A program made the position numbers and the translations under genes. Source: an uncultured Bacilli bacterium (GTDB lineage: Bacteria > Bacillota_I > Bacilli_A > RF39 > UBA660). From it: a stretch of 32,532 bases of DNA. The stretch is taken from contig CALVQX010000020.1 in the NCBI GenBank assembly GCA_944358405.1, positions 1-32,532 of the forward strand, given 5' to 3'. Below the pieces are notes generated by a model. It did no database searches. It worked only from the letters and a program-made list of their open reading frames with translations, and was not told the DNA's origin. Below are positions 8,335-23,791 of the stretch, one piece after another (positions within the stretch are counted from its first letter, which is position 1; each line of letters starts with the position of its first letter).

Positions 8335-8363
8335 TTGACAAATTCATATGATATTAATATAAT
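8335..8363 (+). promoter_or_regulatory. Sigma-A promoter of pncA
   Basis: Consensus TTGACA at 8335-8340 and TATAAT at 8358-8363 with a 17-bp spacer. The -10 box lies inside the palindrome at 8350-8372, an arrangement typical of repression. Confidence 0.88.
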
Positions 8364-8372
8364 GTTAATAAC
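8350..8372. promoter_or_regulatory. Putative NrtR operator at the pncA promoter
   Basis: GATATTAA-N7-TTAATAAC, an inverted repeat with 7 of 8 arm positions symmetric and the -10 box TATAAT in its centre. A near-identical palindrome sits in the same place at the 17609-17637 promoter. Assignment to NrtR is inferred from the NAD gene context and the nrtR-like gene at 22159. Confidence 0.75.
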
Positions 8373-8392
8373 AAGCGAGGAAAAGCTTGTTA
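8369..8392 (+). promoter_or_regulatory. 5'-terminal hairpin in the pncA leader
   Basis: TAACAAGC pairs with GCTTGTTA (8 bp) around the loop GAGGAAAA. The expected transcription start is near 8370, so the stem would form at the very 5' end of the mRNA. It could stabilise the transcript; no known riboswitch fold is recognised. Confidence 0.5.
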
Positions 8393-8405
8393 AAAAACAC
8401 ATTTT

Positions 8406-8428
8406 GTTATTAATAGAATATAAATAAG
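8406..8428. promoter_or_regulatory. RBS-proximal operator-like element upstream of pncA
   Basis: GTTATTAA-N7-TAAATAAG directly precedes the SD GAGGAG. It has the same 8-7-8 layout as the promoter operator with a weaker right arm. Whether it acts as DNA or RNA is unknown. Confidence 0.5.
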
Positions 8429-8439
8429 AGGAGATAAGT

Positions 8440-9036
8440 ATGAATCAAGTGAAAGATCTAAAAGTTTATGAGGGGATGTTAATTGTTGTTGATATGGTGA
8501 ATGGATTTGTGGAGGAAGGCGTTTTACATGATAAAAATATTAAAAAAATTATTCCAAGGCAGATTGAACTGATTAAAGAAGCTCATGATAAAAATCATTT
8601 AGTTATTTTTGTTAAGGATGCACATGATGAAGATGCAGTGGAATTTCGGCGCTTTGGTAATACAAAACATTGCATCAGAGGTACAAGAGAAGCGGAAGTG
8701 GTTGAGGAATTAAAAACATTTGAAGAAATGGATGATACGATTTCAATTGAAAAAAACTCAACAAGTTTTATGGAATCTTTAGAATTTAGAAGGGTTGCTG
8801 CAAATACACCAAATATAAAAACAGTAGATGTTGTTGGTTGTTGTACAGATATTTGCGATTTTAATGGAATTATGGGACTTGCAAATTACTATGATGAATG
8901 GAATCGAGATGTTGAAATTGCAGTACATGAAGATGCCATCGCAACTTACAATGAAGAAGAAAGAGGCGAATATGTAGAGGCGGCTAAGTTATTGATGAAG
9001 CAACAGGGAATACAGTTAGTAAAGAAAATTTCGTAA
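8440..9036 (+). CDS. pncA: Nicotinamidase / isochorismatase-family cysteine hydrolase
   Basis: Probably converts nicotinamide to nicotinate, the first step of deamidating NAD salvage. The 198-aa protein has the isochorismatase-fold catalytic triad: Asp18 in IVVDMVNGF, Lys in SIEKNSTSF and Cys in VVGCCTDICDF. Length agrees with short bacterial nicotinamidases. SD GAGGAG precedes ATG 8440. It is the first gene after a near-consensus promoter whose -10 box lies in an operator-like palindrome, and pncB follows 54 bp later. That context favours nicotinamidase over other cysteine hydrolases of the family. Cytoplasmic. Confidence 0.88.
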   Translation: MNQVKDLKVYEGMLIVVDMVNGFVEEGVLHDKNIKKIIPRQIELIKEAHDKNHLVIFVKDAHDEDAVEFRRFGNTKHCIRGTREAEVVEELKTFEEMDDTISIEKNSTSFMESLEFRRVAANTPNIKTVDVVGCCTDICDFNGIMGLANYYDEWNRDVEIAVHEDAIATYNEEERGEYVEAAKLLMKQQGIQLVKKIS

Positions 9037-9089: not shown

Positions 9090-10574
9090 ATGAAAAAGGA
9101 AAATTTAACATTATTAACTGATTTATATGAATTGACTATGATGAAAGGATATCATGATATTAAAAATGAGGAAAGAGTGGTGTTTGATGTCTTTTACCGT
9201 AGTAATCCATCAAAGGGAGGATATGCAATTTGTGCAGGTTTAGAACAGGTCATTGAATATATCAAAAACTTACATTTTGAAAAAGAAGATATTGATTATT
9301 TAAGAGAGTTAGAAATTTTTGATGAGGGATTCTTAAAATATTTAGAAGATTTTAAATTTACAGGGAATATCTATGCGATGGAAGAAGGAACGGTAGTATT
9401 TCCAATGGAACCATTATTAAAGGTAGAAGCACCTATTATAGAGGCTCAATTAGTGGAGACTGCTATCTTAAACATGATTAATCATCAAAGTTTAATAGCA
9501 ACGAAAGCATCTAGGGTTTGCCATGCAGCAGAAGGAGAAGGCGTCATGGAATTTGGATTAAGAAGAGCACAGGGGCCTGATGCTGGAACTCTTGGAGCAA
9601 GAGCTGCAATGATCGGGGGATGTTGTGCTACAAGTAATGTATTATGTGGCAAAGAGTTTGATGTTCCAGTTGCTGGAACTCATGCTCATAGCTGGATTAT
9701 GAGTTTTCCTACAGAATATGAAGCATTTAAAAAATATGCCGAACTTTTTCCAAACAATGCTACACTTTTAGTCGATACTTACGATACATTAAATTCTGGA
9801 GTCCCTAATGCTATAAAAGTATTTAAAGAATTACAAGAACAAGGGAAAATGCCTAAAAAATATGGAATTCGTCTAGATAGTGGAGACCTAGCATATCTTT
9901 CTAAACAAGCAAGGAAGATGTTAGATGAAGCAGGATTTTTCGATGCAACTATTTGTGCCTCTAATGACTTAGATGAATATCTAATTGAATCATTAAAAAG
10001 CCAAGGTGCCAAAATTAATTTATGGGGAGTAGGAACTAGTCTGATTACTTCCCGTGATTGTCCAAGTTTTGGAGGAGTATATAAATTGGCTGCGATTAAA
10101 AAAGAAGGAGAAATAATTCCAAAAATCAAATTAAGCGAAGATCGTGTGAAAATTACGAATCCTGGGGATAAGCAAGTGTATCGTTTTTATGATAAAGAAA
10201 CGGGAAAAATTAAAGGAGATATGATTGGATTTGTTGATGAAGAGTACAAAGAAGATCAAAAAATACTTTTGTTTGATCCTGTAGATACATGGAAAAAGAC
10301 AGAATTAATACCTGGTAGTTATACGGTAAGAAAGTTATTACAACCAATCTTTATTGATGGAAAGTGTATTTATGAAAGTCATCCAGTAATGCAAATTAGA
10401 GATTATTGTACGAAGGAAAAAGGAACATTAAGTGATGAAAATAAGAGATTTTTAAATCCACATCCAGTCCATGTTGACCTAAGTTATCCATTATGGGAGT
10501 TAAAAAATAAAATGATCGAAGAAGAAAGAACAAAAAAGGAAAATAGTAAAGTATTTAGGAAGGAAATACATTAA
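9090..10574 (+). CDS. pncB: Nicotinate phosphoribosyltransferase
   Basis: Joins nicotinate to PRPP, with ATP hydrolysis, to give NaMN. The 494-aa protein starts LLTDLYELTMMKGY, the typical N-terminus of the family, and contains the GTHAHSW segment with the phosphorylated His, plus EFGLRRAQGPDAG and RLDSGDLAYLSKQAR, which form the phosphoribosyl/nicotinate site. Length matches the long bacterial PncB type. It follows pncA by 54 bp containing an operator-like element, and nudF follows two bases after its stop codon, so they form one transcription unit. Confidence 0.96.
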   Translation: MKKENLTLLTDLYELTMMKGYHDIKNEERVVFDVFYRSNPSKGGYAICAGLEQVIEYIKNLHFEKEDIDYLRELEIFDEGFLKYLEDFKFTGNIYAMEEGTVVFPMEPLLKVEAPIIEAQLVETAILNMINHQSLIATKASRVCHAAEGEGVMEFGLRRAQGPDAGTLGARAAMIGGCCATSNVLCGKEFDVPVAGTHAHSWIMSFPTEYEAFKKYAELFPNNATLLVDTYDTLNSGVPNAIKVFKELQEQGKMPKKYGIRLDSGDLAYLSKQARKMLDEAGFFDATICASNDLDEYLIESLKSQGAKINLWGVGTSLITSRDCPSFGGVYKLAAIKKEGEIIPKIKLSEDRVKITNPGDKQVYRFYDKETGKIKGDMIGFVDEEYKEDQKILLFDPVDTWKKTELIPGSYTVRKLLQPIFIDGKCIYESHPVMQIRDYCTKEKGTLSDENKRFLNPHPVHVDLSYPLWELKNKMIEEERTKKENSKVFRKEIH

Positions 10575-10576
10575 AA

Positions 10577-11227
10577 ATGAGAAAAGAAAAATTGGAACAA
10601 TTACAAGATTATATTAGGAAGTTACGAACAGTTAAAAAGACCTTAGTTTCATCGGAATGTGTGTATGACAAGGATAAGAAATTTCTTAAGGAAAAAGAAT
10701 TTATAAATATTGAAAAATATATAGTGGAATTAGGAAATGGAATGATAATTCCAAGAGAAAAGATATTAAAAGGTGGAGGAGATAAGAGTGCCGTAATCAT
10801 TATGGCTGTAACCAAAGATAATAATATAGTTTTAGTAGTACAATCAAGAAGTAGCACTCATGAATCGGTATGTGTAGAATTTCCAGCAGGGTATATAGAA
10901 GAAGGGGAGAGTCCAGAGGATGGAGCGAAAAGAGAAATGCTAGAAGAGACGGGATATGTTCCCAGGGAAATGATTTATTTGGATAAATTTTATCAAGATC
11001 AATCTTGTGGGGTTTGTGCTTATAATTACAGTTATTTGGCATTAGGATGTGAAAAGATGCAAGAACAAAATTTAGATGATAATGAAGCAATTCGATATTT
11101 TGAATGTAGTATAGATGAAGTTATGGAGTTAGTAGAGAAAGGCTATATTACAGATATCCAAACAAAATATACCCTAAATCTTGCAAAAGCATATATCTAT
11201 CAAAGAGAAAAACATGGAAAGATATAA
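10577..11227 (+). CDS. NudF-like Nudix hydrolase (ADP-ribose pyrophosphatase)
   Basis: A 216-aa Nudix protein, likely splitting ADP-ribose into AMP and ribose-5-phosphate. The Nudix box is intact: Gly in FPAGYIEEGE, Glu eight residues on, then REMLEETGY (GX5EX7REUXEEXGU), within about residues 110-135. The N-terminal part (residues 1-70) resembles the dimerisation strand region of ADPR hydrolases. It sits in the pncA-pncB operon, where ribose-5-phosphate recovered from ADP-ribose could feed Prs. In NrtR systems ADP-ribose is also the signal, so the enzyme could help switch the regulon off. Substrate is inferred from similarity and context. SD AGGAAGGA, start ATG 10577. Confidence 0.85.
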   Translation: MRKEKLEQLQDYIRKLRTVKKTLVSSECVYDKDKKFLKEKEFINIEKYIVELGNGMIIPREKILKGGGDKSAVIIMAVTKDNNIVLVVQSRSSTHESVCVEFPAGYIEEGESPEDGAKREMLEETGYVPREMIYLDKFYQDQSCGVCAYNYSYLALGCEKMQEQNLDDNEAIRYFECSIDEVMELVEKGYITDIQTKYTLNLAKAYIYQREKHGKI

Positions 11228-17608: not shown

Positions 17609-17637
17609 TTGACAAATTTTATAGTTATTAATATAAT
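17609..17637 (+). promoter_or_regulatory. Sigma-A promoter of the 120-aa gene - prs - nadD operon
   Basis: TTGACA at 17609-17614, 17-bp spacer, TATAAT at 17632-17637, a full consensus. The -10 box lies in the centre of the palindrome at 17624-17646. Confidence 0.88.
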
Positions 17638-17646
17638 GTTAATAAC
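17624..17646. promoter_or_regulatory. Putative NrtR operator at the prs-operon promoter
   Basis: GTTATTAA-N7-TTAATAAC, a perfect 8-bp inverted repeat whose 7-base centre TATAATG contains the -10 box. It is the best copy in the window. The match in layout and sequence to the pncA site argues for one shared repressor. Confidence 0.78.
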
Positions 17647-17715: not shown

Positions 17716-18078
17716 ATGGAAATGACAATAAAAAAAGAACAAGTAGAGAGAATTTTAACAGATTATTATAGGACAAAAGAAGATGTGAATGGAACAGTTA
17801 AAATGAAAACGAAGAAAGAGTTACTTGGTTATTATACATGCGAGCAGACTACAGCAACAACAACAATAGAGTTATCTGGAACAACAATACTATTAGGAAA
17901 TACCATCGTTGTAAGAAGAGTGATCCCATTTGAAGAATATGAAGGAATATTTAAAGATCTACTAGGAGAGCAAGGATATGAAGTAGAAAGACTATGGATT
18001 GATAACGGTATAAACACAGAATGGACAGGTTGGGGCCAATGGAACATAAAGAAGATAAAGTTTATTGCAACGGAATAA
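17716..18078 (+). CDS. Unknown 120-aa protein heading the prs-nadD operon
   Basis: Not recognised. A small soluble protein with an N-terminal helix (MTIKKEQVERILTDYY), a central beta-rich region (YYTCEQTTATTTIELSG, TTILLGNTIVVRRVI) and a C-terminal WGQWNIKKIKF strand. SD AGAGGAG precedes ATG 17716. It is the first gene after a consensus promoter carrying the best operator palindrome of the window, and prs follows 92 bp later. Strong expression and NAD-linked regulation are therefore likely. No catalytic motif is visible; a binding or regulatory role is possible but not shown. Confidence 0.75.
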   Translation: MEMTIKKEQVERILTDYYRTKEDVNGTVKMKTKKELLGYYTCEQTTATTTIELSGTTILLGNTIVVRRVIPFEEYEGIFKDLLGEQGYEVERLWIDNGINTEWTGWGQWNIKKIKFIATE

Positions 18079-18137: not shown

Positions 18138-18160
18138 GATATTAATAAAATATTAATAAG
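18138..18160. promoter_or_regulatory. RBS-proximal operator-like element upstream of prs
   Basis: GATATTAA-N7-TTAATAAG, the strongest of the RBS-proximal copies, preceded by TTTTTTTAAAAT and followed directly by the SD AGAGGTGG. Confidence 0.58.
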
Positions 18161-18170
18161 AGGTGGAATT

Positions 18171-19244
18171 ATGAATAATATTAAAATTATTGCTTTAGAT
18201 AATATCAAAGAAATAGGAAGCGAAGTAAATATTAAATTAAACAAATTAAGAAAGACGGATAAAAACTATATGTTAAACATTACAGCTAGTAGATTTTCTA
18301 ATGGAGAAGGAAAAGTAAAAATAGAAGATTCAGTAAGAGAAAAAGATATTTATCTTTTAGCAGATGTTGGTAATTATGGAATGACATATAATATGCATGG
18401 ATTTACTCATCATATGGCACCTGATGAACATTTTCAGGATATTAAAAGAACAATTTCAGCCATTTCTGGCTATTCAGAAAAAGTAACAGTAATTATGCCA
18501 CTTCTATATCAATCAAGACAACATAAAAGAAAAGGAAGAGAATCAGCTGACTGTGCCTTGGCACTACAAGAATTAGAAAGATTAGGTGTGGATCATATTA
18601 TTACTTTTGATGCACACGATCCAACCATATCGAATGCAATTCCTAATCTACCATTTGAAAATTTCTATCCTACCAACACTATTTTAGAGGACTTATTAAA
18701 AACAGAAAAGTTAAATGAAATCTTAGTAATTAGTCCAGATTTAGGTGCTACAGAACGTGCAAGATATTATGCAGAAATGCTAGATACCAATGTTGGAGCA
18801 TTTTATAAAAGACGCGATTTAACAAAAGTAGTGAATGGAAAAAATCCAATTATTGAACATACTTACATGGGATCATCTGTAGAAGGATGCGATGTCTTAG
18901 TAGTAGACGATATGATAGCAAGCGGTGCTTCTATGTTAGAAGTAGGAAAAAGATTAAAAACAGATGGTGCTAAAAAAGTATATTTTATCGCAACCTTTGC
19001 CTTATTTACAGAAGGAATTGAGGAATTTGATAATGCTTATCAAAATCATTATTTTGATAAATTATACACTACGAATTTATCTTACATTCCTGAAGAATAT
19101 AGAGAAAAAGAATGGTTCCATACGGTAGATTGTTCTGAAAATATTGCAAAAATCATCCATGCCCTACATAACAAAGAATCTCTAAAACCATTATTAAATG
19201 GTAAAGAAAAGATCTTAACATTGCGGAAGGAGAAAGGATTATGA
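18171..19244 (+). CDS. prs: Ribose-phosphate pyrophosphokinase (PRPP synthetase), divergent
   Basis: Makes PRPP from ribose-5-phosphate and ATP. At 357 aa it is longer than the usual 310-320 aa. Recognisable parts are MPLLYQSRQHKRKGRESAD (about residues 107-125), DHIITFDAHDP in place of the usual DLHA segment, and the PRPP-binding loop VLVVDDMIASGASM (about residues 242-255). The first 60 residues and the C-terminus differ from housekeeping Prs. It shares the operator-controlled operon with nadD (four-base ATGA overlap), so it probably supplies PRPP for PncB; a second, housekeeping prs may lie elsewhere. SD AGAGGTGG. Confidence 0.88.
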   Translation: MNNIKIIALDNIKEIGSEVNIKLNKLRKTDKNYMLNITASRFSNGEGKVKIEDSVREKDIYLLADVGNYGMTYNMHGFTHHMAPDEHFQDIKRTISAISGYSEKVTVIMPLLYQSRQHKRKGRESADCALALQELERLGVDHIITFDAHDPTISNAIPNLPFENFYPTNTILEDLLKTEKLNEILVISPDLGATERARYYAEMLDTNVGAFYKRRDLTKVVNGKNPIIEHTYMGSSVEGCDVLVVDDMIASGASMLEVGKRLKTDGAKKVYFIATFALFTEGIEEFDNAYQNHYFDKLYTTNLSYIPEEYREKEWFHTVDCSENIAKIIHALHNKESLKPLLNGKEKILTLRKEKGL

Positions 19245-19864
19245 AAATAGGAATTTTTGGGGGAAGTTTTAATCCTCCGCATCAAATGCATAAGAAAATT
19301 GCAAAAGAATTAATTAAGAAAGGGTATGTAGACAAAGTTATCTTTGTACCAACGGGAATAAAATATGAATATAAAAATAATTTGGTTTCTAATGATGCAA
19401 GATATACTATGTTAACCTTAATGTGTGAAAATGAAAACGATATGATGGTTAGTCGTTATGAGTTTCAAGAAAAGCCAGTCTATACTTATGAGACTTTAGA
19501 TCATTTCAAAAGAAAGTATCCAGAGGATGATATTTACTTTATTTGCGGAACGGATAATTTAAGCTATATGGATCAATGGAAAAAAGGAGACTATATTTTA
19601 GCAAATTATAAACTTTTAATTATTAAAAGAAAAACAGATGACATAGGATCTTTGTTAGAAAAATATAAAAAATACAGAAATAATATTGTAATTACAAACA
19701 TTCGAGAACAAAAGTTATCTTCTACCACAATTAGAGAAAATATAAAAAACCAAAAGAGTATCAAAAGATACGTAGACAAAAAAGTATATCAATATATGAT
19801 GAGAAATCACTTATATGATCAGAAAAAAGATCAGGGATACTATTACGTTATTAAAAGTTATTAA
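19241..19864 (+). CDS. nadD: Nicotinate-nucleotide adenylyltransferase
   Basis: Converts NaMN and ATP to NaAD. The 207-aa protein has the nucleotidyltransferase signature GGSFNPPHQMHKKIA at its N-terminus (GxFxPxHxxH), FICGTDNLSYMDQWK in the middle, and SSTTIRE, the C-terminal SxTxxR motif. Length is standard. It overlaps prs by four bases, so the two are coupled. The last 15 residues after NHLYDQK are slightly longer than usual. The usual Bacillota neighbour yqeK is absent; a degraded stretch follows. Confidence 0.94.
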   Translation: MKIGIFGGSFNPPHQMHKKIAKELIKKGYVDKVIFVPTGIKYEYKNNLVSNDARYTMLTLMCENENDMMVSRYEFQEKPVYTYETLDHFKRKYPEDDIYFICGTDNLSYMDQWKKGDYILANYKLLIIKRKTDDIGSLLEKYKKYRNNIVITNIREQKLSSTTIRENIKNQKSIKRYVDKKVYQYMMRNHLYDQKKDQGYYYVIKSY

Positions 19865-19889
19865 AAAGTTTTCTATAATTCATATTTCT

Positions 19890-20263
19890 AGACATTATTA
19901 TTTAAAAGATAAAATAGAGAAATATTGCATACTCCAATGCTGTAACTACTGATGATATCTTATATTTGCAACAACATTTGACGGATAAAAAAATTATAAA
20001 TATTAATACTATTATAATGAAGGATGAAATTCATTCACTAATAGACATAAAATGTATGCTTAATTATGTAGATACTATTAGCGTTTATAAAACTGAGGTT
20101 ATTTTTGACGAAGTATAATTTCTATGCTAAAGAACAGTTGATTAATTTGAAGCATATTTTCGAAAACTTAGATGCGTTTTTTACAGCCTATCATTGTTAT
20201 AGTCAAGACCATTTAATAAAGTTACTGCAAGATTTAGCAAGAAGATTTTGTACAAATAAATGA
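19890..20263 (+). pseudogene. Degraded coding remnant, unknown
   Basis: The 442 bases between nadD and the next gene hold three overlapping open stretches in successive frames: one with SRHYYLKDKIEKYC (from 19890), one from about 19920 to the stop at 20116-20118 with TTDDILYLQQHLTDKK, and one ending at 20261-20263 with NFYAKEQLINLKHIFENL. Joined through two frameshifts they would give about 120 residues. None has a good start codon or SD. This looks like a decayed gene, but I cannot name the family. Confidence 0.4.
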
Positions 20264-20306
20264 GATATGATAAAATAGGAGAAAATCGAATTTAGAGGTG
20301 AGTTAT

Positions 20307-20894
20307 GTGTTCAAAAACATCGAGATTAATGCCGAATGGTATTATCACCGAATTGATATGTTTTCGATGAAAGGTATTTTTCAATCCAGAGCAATATTAT
20401 CTAAGAGAAAGCAAGGATATCATAAGACAGATACTTGTTCTTGGAACGGATTAGACTACATTTCCGTAGCAAAACGAATTCCACAAATGATTTACGATAG
20501 TTTTTACCAAAAAATAATTAGAGGGCAATATGCTTTTGTGTTGGATAAAATTGATATCATTCCAACAAAGTATAAGAAAAAGCATTATGACTTTTTTCGA
20601 ACTATTTCAACGATTCTTCCGAATCAATGGTATTCTTGCTATCGAGATGAGTATCAAGTAAAAGATAGAATAGTAAAAGATAGAATAACGATAGAAAAAA
20701 TAATAGGAATCAAAATTCCAGAAAAAGATCAAAATATTTTCGTTGGTTATCCAAGCTACATGACAAAGGATTGCTATATTGACTTATATTTAAAAAATAT
20801 GGAAGAATACAAAATAGACTTACCATTCTTTGATATTGAAGAGGGATTACAAATAGATCAAGAAGAAATAAAAAGGTATCTTATAACAAGATAA
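20307..20894 (+). CDS. Possible ADP-ribosyltransferase-like protein (DarT-like pattern)
   Basis: A 195-aa protein of no firmly recognised family. GTG 20307 is chosen because AGGTGAG lies just upstream; GTG 20298 would overlap that SD. The order of motifs resembles DarT/Tpt1-type ADP-ribosyltransferases: YYHRID with His14 followed by a helix MKGIFQSRAILSKR (as in H..d...l..Il..G.l.s), NGLDYISVAKR with Tyr51/Ser53, a strand YAFVLD, then YRDEYQVKDRI with Glu115 followed by IEKIIGIKIP (as in the E-LV...i....I..I.v pattern). That H-Y-E-like layout would bind NAD. It lies between nadD and pncC. The call is inference from pattern only; a housekeeping or structural role is possible. Confidence 0.5.
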   Translation: MFKNIEINAEWYYHRIDMFSMKGIFQSRAILSKRKQGYHKTDTCSWNGLDYISVAKRIPQMIYDSFYQKIIRGQYAFVLDKIDIIPTKYKKKHYDFFRTISTILPNQWYSCYRDEYQVKDRIVKDRITIEKIIGIKIPEKDQNIFVGYPSYMTKDCYIDLYLKNMEEYKIDLPFFDIEEGLQIDQEEIKRYLITR

Positions 20895-20906: not shown

Positions 20907-21383
20907 ATGGATTTTAAAGAAGTGATACATCTTTTACAATTAGAACAAAAAACGATTTCAACCATGGAATCTTGTACTGGTGGCGGAGTTGCCAATGCGA
21001 TTACTAATTGTGAAGGTGCGAGTGAAATACTAAAATTTAGTGCAGTAACGTATTGTAATGAGTACAAAATAAAGATGGGTGTACCAAAAGAAGTAATTGA
21101 TAAATATACAGTTTACAGTATGGAAACAGCAGATGAAATGAGCCAAAATATTGCAAAGTTTGCTAATAGCGATTATGGAGTAGGGATTACCGGACAATTG
21201 AATAGGCAAGACCCTGCCAACCCAGTTGGCAAAGATAACGTTGTTTATATTAGTATTTATGATAGAGAAAATGATAAGTATTATAGAGAAAAGATGGAAG
21301 TTCATAAAGAAAGTAGAAAATTAAATAAAGATCATGTCATTGACAAAATTATTGAAATGCTAGAAAGTATATTAAATATGTGA
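20907..21383 (+). CDS. pncC: Nicotinamide-nucleotide amidase (stand-alone CinA C-domain)
   Basis: Deamidates NMN to NaMN, returning NMN (for example from DNA ligase) to the NadD/NadE route. The 158-aa protein is the C-terminal CinA domain alone, with the catalytic Ser22 in TMESCTGGGVAN, the AVTYCNEYKIKMGV segment and YGVGITGQ. Family members normally show GITGxAGP here; this one has GITGQLNRQDP, a small departure. SD AAAGGAGG precedes ATG 20907, 12 bp after the ART-like gene, so the two are probably cotranscribed. Confidence 0.88.
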   Translation: MDFKEVIHLLQLEQKTISTMESCTGGGVANAITNCEGASEILKFSAVTYCNEYKIKMGVPKEVIDKYTVYSMETADEMSQNIAKFANSDYGVGITGQLNRQDPANPVGKDNVVYISIYDRENDKYYREKMEVHKESRKLNKDHVIDKIIEMLESILNM

Positions 21384-21407
21384 TAATATAGTGTTGAGGT
21401 GATTTGT

Positions 21408-22109
21408 TTGAGAGATGCTGATTTAGCGAAAGTAAGGGAAGAATTTAGAAAAAACTTAAAGGAAAGTTCGGATTTTTCTTCCTATAAAAAGGAATTAAAA
21501 AGATTAGAGGAAAATGAGTATGTAAAACGATATTTAGAGCTTTTAGAGCTAGTAGATAGAGATGATAAAGAACCAACAGTAGAAGAACTCGTTAGTCTAG
21601 CTTATCAAAATGCGAATGTTTCTATACGGGATGAAGATAGTAATCATATTATGGTATATGTAGGAACGTACTGCAAAGATACAGATATGCATCATGACAA
21701 TGACTCACTGACGCTTAATGATAGTAATGCTAGTTATAAAGCATATTTAGATTTAGAAACACAGCAAGCTTATAATATTGCCATGGACAAAACAGAGGAA
21801 TTTGAACGAGAATTTCTTACGCTATATCTTCCTATAGAAAATAAACTAGATCATCATGACTATATGTCACAATATTTTGAACTGCAAACTTGGTTTAAAA
21901 AAGAATTAATGCAAACACCCCAAGATATGGTAATAAAAAAACTACAGATAATAGGAAAAATAAGAAAAAGTGAAGATGCAAACTCTTTTGATGTTTCGCT
22001 TTTTGTTCGAGCATATGGAGATGACTATTATCTAGAAAAATTTGGGTTATCACACAAAAATAGAGAAAAAGTAAAACGATACAAAGTGGAGCATCCTGAA
22101 TTTTGCTAG
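21408..22109 (+). CDS. Unknown 233-aa protein between pncC and nrtR
   Basis: Not recognised. TTG 21408 is chosen because GAGGTGAT lies upstream; GTG 21399 overlaps that SD. The first 65 residues are charged and helical (VREEFRKNLKES, YKKELKRLEENEYVKRYLELLELV), probably coiled coil. The middle has an alpha/beta part with HIMVYVGTYCKDTDMHHDND, which holds Cys, His and Asp residues that could bind metal. No signal peptide or membrane segment. It starts 24 bp after pncC and ends 49 bp before nrtR. Confidence 0.7.
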   Translation: MRDADLAKVREEFRKNLKESSDFSSYKKELKRLEENEYVKRYLELLELVDRDDKEPTVEELVSLAYQNANVSIRDEDSNHIMVYVGTYCKDTDMHHDNDSLTLNDSNASYKAYLDLETQQAYNIAMDKTEEFEREFLTLYLPIENKLDHHDYMSQYFELQTWFKKELMQTPQDMVIKKLQIIGKIRKSEDANSFDVSLFVRAYGDDYYLEKFGLSHKNREKVKRYKVEHPEFC

Positions 22110-22158: not shown

Positions 22159-22989
22159 ATGAAAAAAGAATATAAAACAGAAGAAGAATTCCTAAAAGAT
22201 TATGATCCAAAAGAATTTGATCAATTATCTATAACTGCTGATATTTTACTTGTTAGTGTATCTGATCAAGAACAGACAAATTATCGAAAAACCAGTAAGA
22301 AAATGATGAGCATTCTACTAGTAAAAAGAAATGATTTTCCATATAAAGGAAAATGGTGCTTGCCAGGAGGATTTTTAAATCCAAAAACGGAAACATTAGA
22401 AGAGTGTGCTAGAAGAGTTTTAAAGAATGAAACGAATTTATCTCATATTTATCTAGAACAATTGTATACTTTTGATGGATTGGATAGAGACCCTAGAACT
22501 AGAGTTGTTTCAACTGCTTATGTTGCTTTGATTGATAAAAATCAATTGACTGAAATGATCAATGAGAATGCTTCATGGTTTGATATTGTTTTGATTGAGG
22601 AAAAAGATGGTATAGTAGATATTACTTTGGATAATGGAAGTGAACTGATTCGTCTTTCTATTCGCAAGGAGTTAAAAGAGGAAACAACAGATCGCTATTT
22701 ATTCACTGATATTGGGAAGGAGTCTTTGGCATTTGATCATTCTGTTGTTTTGTTGTCTGGTTTAGAACGAATTCGTAATAAATTGAATTATACAGATATT
22801 GTTTTTAATATGATGCCAGAATATTTCACTTTAGGGGAACTTCAACAAGTGTATGAAGTTATTTTAGGTAAAAAATTGCTAGATCCAGCATTTCGAAGAA
22901 TTATCGCGGATAAAGTAGAAAAGACCAACAAGATGAAGACAGGGGAAGGTCATCGCCCATCGGCACTATTTCGTTATAGGAGAAAGTAA
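22159..22989 (+). CDS. nrtR: NrtR-type transcriptional regulator (Nudix domain + winged helix)
   Basis: A 276-aa regulator of NAD genes. Residues about 20-165 form a Nudix domain starting ADILLVSVS with PGGFLNPKTETLEECARRVL, and residues about 190-270 a winged-helix domain with MMPEYFTLGELQQVYEVILG and FRRIIADKVEKT, ending HRPSALFRYRR, as in NrtR. The Nudix box is degenerate: RREU is replaced by RRVL and EEXGU by NETNL, so hydrolysis is probably lost and the domain senses ADP-ribose, as established for NrtR repressors. It is followed one base later by nadK. Likely targets are the palindromes at 8350 and 17624. Confidence 0.9.
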   Translation: MKKEYKTEEEFLKDYDPKEFDQLSITADILLVSVSDQEQTNYRKTSKKMMSILLVKRNDFPYKGKWCLPGGFLNPKTETLEECARRVLKNETNLSHIYLEQLYTFDGLDRDPRTRVVSTAYVALIDKNQLTEMINENASWFDIVLIEEKDGIVDITLDNGSELIRLSIRKELKEETTDRYLFTDIGKESLAFDHSVVLLSGLERIRNKLNYTDIVFNMMPEYFTLGELQQVYEVILGKKLLDPAFRRIIADKVEKTNKMKTGEGHRPSALFRYRRK

Positions 22990-22990
22990 T

Positions 22991-23791
22991 ATGAAAGAGA
23001 TTAGGAAGATTAAACTTTTTGCAAATGATAATGAGCCTTCACAAAAAGTTGCGTTGTTTGTTCGGAAAAAATTTGAAGAAAGAGGATTTTTAATTGTTGA
23101 TGATGATTTTGATTTAGGGATTGCGATTGGTGGAGATGGAGCCTTTTTACGAATGATAAAAAACAGTAATTTTTGTAGTGATTGCTACTACATTGGTGTA
23201 AATACTGGTACTTTAGGATTTGCTCAAGAGGTCTCTGTAGAACAGATTGATTCCTTTGTACAAATGGTTTGTGATCGAGATTTTAAAGTAGAGACGATTG
23301 GGATAGAGGAGATCTCTATTACTACTGCAGATAGTATTTCTAAACATTTTGCTTTGAATGAAATGGTTATTCGTGATCAAGAATTAAATACAACGAACAT
23401 AACAGTCAAGATCGATGGAGTGATGTTAGAAGAGTATGCAGGAGATGGATTGTTAATTGCAACTTCTTTTGGTTCTACTGCATACAATCTAAGTTTTGGA
23501 GGCAGTATTGTTTATAATACGTTTCATACGTTGCAAATTACTCCAATTGCTCCATTAAATAACAAGTCTTATCGTAATTTGTTAAATTCTGTAATCATTC
23601 CGGATAATCGTGTGATTACTTTGCTTCCAAGAGATGATAAGAAAAATTTATTAATTACTTTAGATGGAGATAATTATTCTTATTCTAATGTAGAAAAAAT
23701 AGAGACTTTTATTGATCAAAAATTTATCTCTATCCTTCGAATGAAAGATTATGATTTTTCTAAAAAGATTTGTGATAAGTTTTTAAAATAA
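22991..23791 (+). CDS. nadK: NAD kinase
   Basis: Phosphorylates NAD to NADP. The 266-aa protein has GGDGAFLR at residues 47-54, the conserved FALNEMVIRD (NE motif) and the glycine-rich GDGLLIATSFGSTAYNLSFGGSIV. Length is standard for Gram-positive NadK. Start ATG 22991 is one base after the nrtR stop codon, so regulator and kinase are cotranscribed and perhaps coupled. No terminator is evident after it. Confidence 0.95.
   Translation: MKEIRKIKLFANDNEPSQKVALFVRKKFEERGFLIVDDDFDLGIAIGGDGAFLRMIKNSNFCSDCYYIGVNTGTLGFAQEVSVEQIDSFVQMVCDRDFKVETIGIEEISITTADSISKHFALNEMVIRDQELNTTNITVKIDGVMLEEYAGDGLLIATSFGSTAYNLSFGGSIVYNTFHTLQITPIAPLNNKSYRNLLNSVIIPDNRVITLLPRDDKKNLLITLDGDNYSYSNVEKIETFIDQKFISILRMKDYDFSKKICDKFLK

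Follow-up and report, generated by a model that had tools for sequence, protein, structure and literature searches.

A predicted H-Y-E ADP-ribosyltransferase in a putatively NrtR-controlled NAD salvage operon, exchanged or paired with an ADP-ribosylglycohydrolase in related uncultured Bacilli

Why should a gene for a predicted consumer of nicotinamide adenine dinucleotide (NAD) lie inside an operon for NAD synthesis? The question is raised by a 32,532-nucleotide stretch of contig CALVQX010000020.1 (assembly GCA_944358405.1) from an uncultured gut Bacilli bacterium, hereafter called the window, in which an open reading frame (ORF) of 195 codons is flanked by nadD and pncC, as a first-pass annotation of the letters alone had stated. 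That annotation proposed a DarT-like adenosine diphosphate (ADP)-ribosyltransferase (ART). Bacterial NAD-consuming modifications are known mostly as toxins and defence systems. We read this module as reversible, or once reversible, ADP-ribosylation within an ADP-ribose-responsive NAD regulon. The explanation that we favour, with a probability of roughly 0.55, is that the protein is an H-Y-E ART controlled by an NrtR-type repressor together with NAD salvage, and paired now or formerly with an ADP-ribosylglycohydrolase (ARH). Its computed basis consists of the fold, the conserved residues, the operon, a palindrome common to NAD genes, and the exchange and pairing of ART and ARH genes. All of the genomes compared are apparently metagenome-assembled.

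The ORF is real, and the residue numbering His14, Tyr51 and Glu115 given in the first-pass annotation is correct. The start at GTG 20307 is preferred over GTG 20298 because AGAGGTGAG, a good ribosome-binding site, lies immediately 5' of it and because the N-termini of relatives (MIKKI../MIRKIEINP) agree with it. AlphaFold2 models built from 13 and from 50 sequences are both confident, with predicted local distance difference test (pLDDT) scores of 82.5 and 87.4, respectively. The best fold match in the PDB is Thermus DarT (E 9.8e-4, probability 1.00); DarT structures with and without NAD or DNA rank first, followed by Tpt1 (probability 0.98), and the top 23 matches are mostly ARTs. TM-scores of about 0.44 are modest, in line with a distant relationship to the known ARTs. 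With a widened family profile, DarT1 is the best PDB sequence (whole-sequence E 0.003), with its His strand-helix in register. Since the DarT and Tpt1 fold matches and the profile agree, the modelled ART fold is near certain, as the annotation had predicted. In the model the ART-type helix comprises residues 18-27, and the segment NGLDYISVAK, which had been taken for this helix, is a predicted loop plus strand 53-55. The term DarT-like holds for the fold and the H-Y-E layout and fails for family membership: the protein has no match to the DarT profile PF14487, a search of 120 genomes of the class with that profile found none, and the weak matches among relatives are one of 50 at E 0.026 and one at E 0.008 in PADLOC.

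The catalytic residues are conserved far above chance. Across 50 diverse homologues with a mean column identity of 21%, His14 is kept in 49, an aromatic residue (Tyr, Phe or Trp) at position 51 in 46 (Tyr in 33), and Glu115 in all 50. The first-pass annotation had named two findings that would refute it, a fold unlike that of ARTs and a lack of conservation of His14 and Glu115; both were checked, and neither was obtained. Asn47 is kept in 48 and Ser53 in 47 of the homologues, while Arg34 is conserved in the operon subfamily only. An ART fold with conserved His, aromatic and Glu residues in this order is what characterizes the H-Y-E (ARTD) class, and the protein has both. From these features it is likely to be catalytically active as an ART. 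The ratio of nonsynonymous to synonymous substitution (dN/dS) is 0.15-0.47 between orthologues, and the gene is therefore under purifying selection. Two orthologues are damaged, one by an in-frame loss of residues 89-157, catalytic Glu included (L225:8001-8375), and one by a frameshift after about residue 20 (L219:5912-6456); this suggests repeated loss or assembly error.

The rank of Tpt1/KptA structures as the second-best fold group raises the alternative of a housekeeping NAD-linked repair enzyme, for example one for Tpt1-like 2'-phosphate removal or for damaged nucleotides, that transfers nothing to a macromolecule. Such a role would suit the RNA repair genes that pncC operons elsewhere include (PMC3680494). 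The Tpt1/KptA motif is H-H-h and lacks the catalytic Glu (PMC9967889), whereas Glu115 is invariant here; the KptA profile gives no match, which places the protein outside that family, and its patchy presence does not suit housekeeping. We consider this explanation quite unlikely.

The slot between nadD and pncC carries the argument further. In relatives it holds an ARH gene alone or ARH and ART genes side by side, a new point that the first-pass annotation overlooked. Both nadD and pncC are visible at 17 loci, the window's own and those of 16 relatives; the slot is empty at 12, holds an ART gene at two (the window and G076) and an ARH gene at three, and contains nothing else. A fourth ARH case, in G029, is deduced from coordinates. 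The slot ARH is identified as PF03747 (E 3e-37; 7e-36). Three further near relatives, L222, L223 and L224, come from a named genome collection and lie outside the 17 loci. The order in L223 and L224 is nadD-ARH-ART-pncC; the ARH of L224 retains the TDD and GGDTDT motifs, and that of L223 has GGDSST and has lost TDD. Only recognisable ARH flanks remain in L222, where the ART gene is intact. Strict toxin-antitoxin dependence is disfavoured because the hydrolase is lost while the ART is intact. In the window itself, the 442 bp between nadD and the ART gene contain short, broken reading frames that are possible gene remains. As an ARH remnant this stretch was set aside, no protein match having been found.

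These slots bear directly on a second alternative, in which the protein is a toxin that consumes NAD, either of DarT type or an NADase, and acts in growth arrest or against phages; its gene would have lodged in the NAD operon, and an ARH, where there is one, would be the antitoxin. In favour of it, the fold is nearest to that of DarT, the gene pairs of L223 and L224 resemble toxin-antitoxin pairs, the window copy has diverged fast relative to its operon, the family is patchy and includes tandem genes and fusions with other domains, and decayed copies exist (the L219 frameshift and the L225 deletion). Against it, the ART is intact where the ARH is decayed (L223) or deleted (L222), and also in the window's own genome (about 90% complete), where no ARH, macrodomain (PF01661) or NADAR (PF08719) is detected. 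The first-pass remark that no obvious macrodomain antitoxin lies nearby thus extends to that genome. The gene moreover has core genes on both flanks, inside a biosynthetic operon that is essential, and no relatives turned up when viral contigs, phages and plasmids were searched by sequence. The toxin option, which the annotation had also offered, is not favoured, and we regard it as possible though rather unlikely.

The preferred reading of an ART tied to NAD salvage gains from the operon and its predicted control. The gene order is phosphoribosyl pyrophosphate (PRPP) synthetase, nadD, ART, pncC, NrtR-type repressor and NAD kinase, and it is preserved in Candidatus Onthousia and close relatives. 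The operon promoter is overlapped at its -10 box by a palindrome with the layout GTTATTAA-N7-TTAATAAC, which is conserved in relatives. In the 1.32 Mb of the window's own genome, the only perfect copy is the one at this promoter; copies with one or two mismatches precede the pncA-pncB-NUDIX genes (two copies) and the PRPP synthetase gene, and one lies elsewhere. A reversed control pattern is as frequent overall in this genome (7 vs 5), so the operator is argued from placement and cross-species conservation, not from count. That the palindrome arose by chance was considered improbable, as 525 kb of other loci contain these arms with this spacing a single time. Known NrtR proteins bind 23-bp palindromes of this kind, and ADP-ribose releases them from these sites (PMC6800001). 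A repressor with PF21906 and a palindrome common to NAD genes, the two marks of an NrtR regulon, are present here, and the palindrome is the predicted operator.

The mechanism that we infer covers catalysis, target, transfer, reversal and ADP-ribose feedback. By established ART chemistry, His14 and Tyr51 would bind NAD and Glu115 would activate the ribose; the enzyme would cleave NAD+ and transfer ADP-ribose onto a cellular macromolecule, with release of nicotinamide. It would be co-produced with the NAD salvage enzymes under the NrtR-type repressor, whose repression ADP-ribose is expected to lift. In some relatives, the ARH of the ARH/DraG family encoded in the same slot would undo the modification and free ADP-ribose. 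The freed nicotinamide would re-enter through PncA and PncB, and the freed ADP-ribose would act as a signal for the repressor and likely be degraded by the NUDIX enzyme encoded at 10577. The role of the ART would be regulatory rather than toxic. A more specific version is tentative, with the odds leaning against it: in some uncultured gut Bacilli the slot ART and ARH would form a reversible switch, acting on a target that may be a salvage enzyme or a nucleic acid, and the freed ADP-ribose would lift NrtR repression, so that NAD use and NAD synthesis are coupled in one operon.

Several observations weigh against the favoured explanation. The window's own genome has no detectable ARH, and reversal there is thus not supported. 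ARH and ART are found singly more often than together, so that a functional pair depends on two relatives, one of which is L223, whose ARH has lost TDD. Pairwise sequence comparison with known ART families is not significant. The window ART is 43-46% identical to its nearest relatives, compared with 89% for PncC, and its role may therefore have shifted or the gene may have been replaced. The window copy also carries a tandem 15-bp duplication (20658-20687; VKDRI twice) directly after the Glu115 strand, which is absent from relatives. Divergence and duplication together indicate from the sequence that the function of this copy may have shifted. The same two features, with the decayed orthologues in L219 and L225, would fit an ART fold that is non-catalytic in this species, either as a sensor of NAD or ADP-ribose or as a decaying gene. 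Every catalytic residue is retained, however, the frame is full length, and dN/dS among orthologues is well under 1, which makes this the least probable of the explanations and a very doubtful one. The coordinates of the features discussed are collected in Table 1.

Table 1. Features of the NAD salvage locus and its ART gene (window positions).
Feature	Coordinates	Strand	Basis or remark
Two palindrome copies 5' of pncA-pncB (8350-8372, 8406-8428)	8350..8428	.	
pncA-like nicotinamidase (isochorismatase family)	8440..9036	+	
pncB, nicotinate phosphoribosyltransferase	9090..10574	+	
NUDIX hydrolase, ADP-compound or ADP-ribose pyrophosphatase type	10577..11227	+	
NAD operon consensus promoter, TTGACA-17-TATAAT	17609..17637	+	12/12 match; conserved upstream in relatives
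Palindrome GTTATTAATATAATGTTAATAAC, predicted NrtR operator	17624..17646	.	overlaps -10 box; sole perfect copy in genome
First operon ORF, 120 aa, unknown family	17716..18078	+	also in L222 and L223
Second, weaker palindrome copy 5' of PRPP synthetase gene	18138..18160	.	2 mismatches
PRPP synthetase	18171..19244	+	NF005299
nadD, nicotinate-nucleotide adenylyltransferase	19241..19864	+	TIGR00482
442-bp stretch without convincing gene	19865..20306	+	relatives carry ARH gene here
H-Y-E ADP-ribosyltransferase-like protein, 195 aa, GTG start	20307..20894	+	ORF, homologues, fold model
His14 codon (predicted NAD-binding His, strand 1)	20346..20348	+	from 20307 start; conserved
Tyr51 codon (predicted nicotinamide-stacking aromatic)	20457..20459	+	from 20307 start; aromatic conserved
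Glu115 codon (predicted catalytic Glu)	20649..20651	+	from 20307 start; conserved
pncC, nicotinamide mononucleotide (NMN) amidohydrolase	20907..21383	+	PF02464, TIGR00199
Accessory ORF, 236 aa, unknown	21399..22109	+	also in L222 and L223 (about 52% identity)
NrtR-type Nudix repressor	22159..22989	+	PF21906 NrtR_WHD + NUDIX
NAD kinase	22991..23791	+	

How widely the ART occurs can be stated for the order. The protein is a member of an uncatalogued family. Searched with the protein alone, Pfam, NCBIfam, PADLOC and PHROGs yielded nothing beyond chance matches, and the first search also produced weak matches, likewise read as chance, to HerA ATPases, a YqeH-type GTPase and a secreted protein. Within the order, relatives range from close ones at 40-45% identity to distant ones, and they include Candidatus Onthousia faecipullorum and other uncultured Bacilli/Tenericutes. 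The family profile matches 62 of 385 genomes and 35 of 118 genera of the order, a few of these matches being weak and probably due to chance, so that the family is present in about a sixth of the sampled genomes. Samples of the class and phylum gave no credible match beyond the window's own taxonomic family; a profile match in G491 was rejected as a chance hit to a lipoprotein.

The ART domain also occurs in larger proteins and other settings. In four loci (L029:8728-10290, L073:4831-6699, L098:4704-6362 and L104:103-1707) it is part of proteins of 521-623 aa, with an N-terminal region that has a weak HD-domain match, none being detected in L073; in five genomes the gene before encodes a leucine-rich-repeat-like protein. 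In six others (L083:6715-9852, L092, L094, L096, L097 and L108) it lies at the C-terminus of longer proteins (about 1000-1100 aa), and in each case the preceding gene encodes an ankyrin-repeat-like protein of about 500 aa. One genome (G137) has three tandem ART genes (L025:9685-11462), and at L024:4007-5832 a NUDIX hydrolase gene and a DUF488 gene follow an ART gene, a further neighbourhood suggestive of ADP-ribose. The NAD operon of relatives carries accessory genes at other junctions (L021:6962-7669, L022:3728-4513 and L132:2042-2779), namely radical SAM, CHC2 zinc-finger and transglutaminase-like genes.

The slot pattern suggests that a small system of reversible tagging is tied to the supply of NAD. 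If this is true, bacteria would offer here a rare example of physiological ADP-ribosylation, by a chromosomal ART that alternates with its eraser in a single slot of an NAD operon responsive to ADP-ribose, or shares that slot with it, and the feedback loop could be read from the operon. The family, with its fusions to HD domains and to long repeat-associated proteins, offers a set of testable enzymes, since it is uncatalogued, fused and spread over about a sixth of the order's sampled genomes.

Comparison with known systems helps to place the module. In the papers available to the search, no description was found of one regulator controlling an H-Y-E ART, an ARH and NAD salvage together, though this does not prove that none exists. 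DarT of DarTG is the closest solved fold, of similar length, with the same layout of His on the first strand, Tyr near strand 3 and Glu on a late strand; in DarT2 the special residues are Arg51, Met78 and a base-coordinating His119. Unlike DarT, the ART described here is paired with an ARH in relatives, has no DarG macrodomain or NADAR in the window's own genome, and is encoded in an NAD operon. Tpt1/KptA enzymes also use NAD and differ at the catalytic Glu. The DraT-DraG system resembles L223 and L224 in that an ART gene adjoins an ARH gene, and the slot ARH is distantly related to DraG (TIGR02662, E 1e-12, below cut-off). DraT, in contrast, belongs to the R-S-E class and its profile does not match the window protein; its context is nitrogen fixation, whereas here it is NAD salvage, in a genome that lacks the hydrolase. 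The closest published idea is that of ARG-centred operons with a Nudix regulator, which were selected for lacking an ART and are proposed to counter viral ADP-ribosylation (PMC9503650). Both arrangements place an ARH in an operon with a Nudix repressor that is expected to sense ADP-ribose; in the present one, an ART fills or shares the slot, and the remainder of the operon is NAD salvage.
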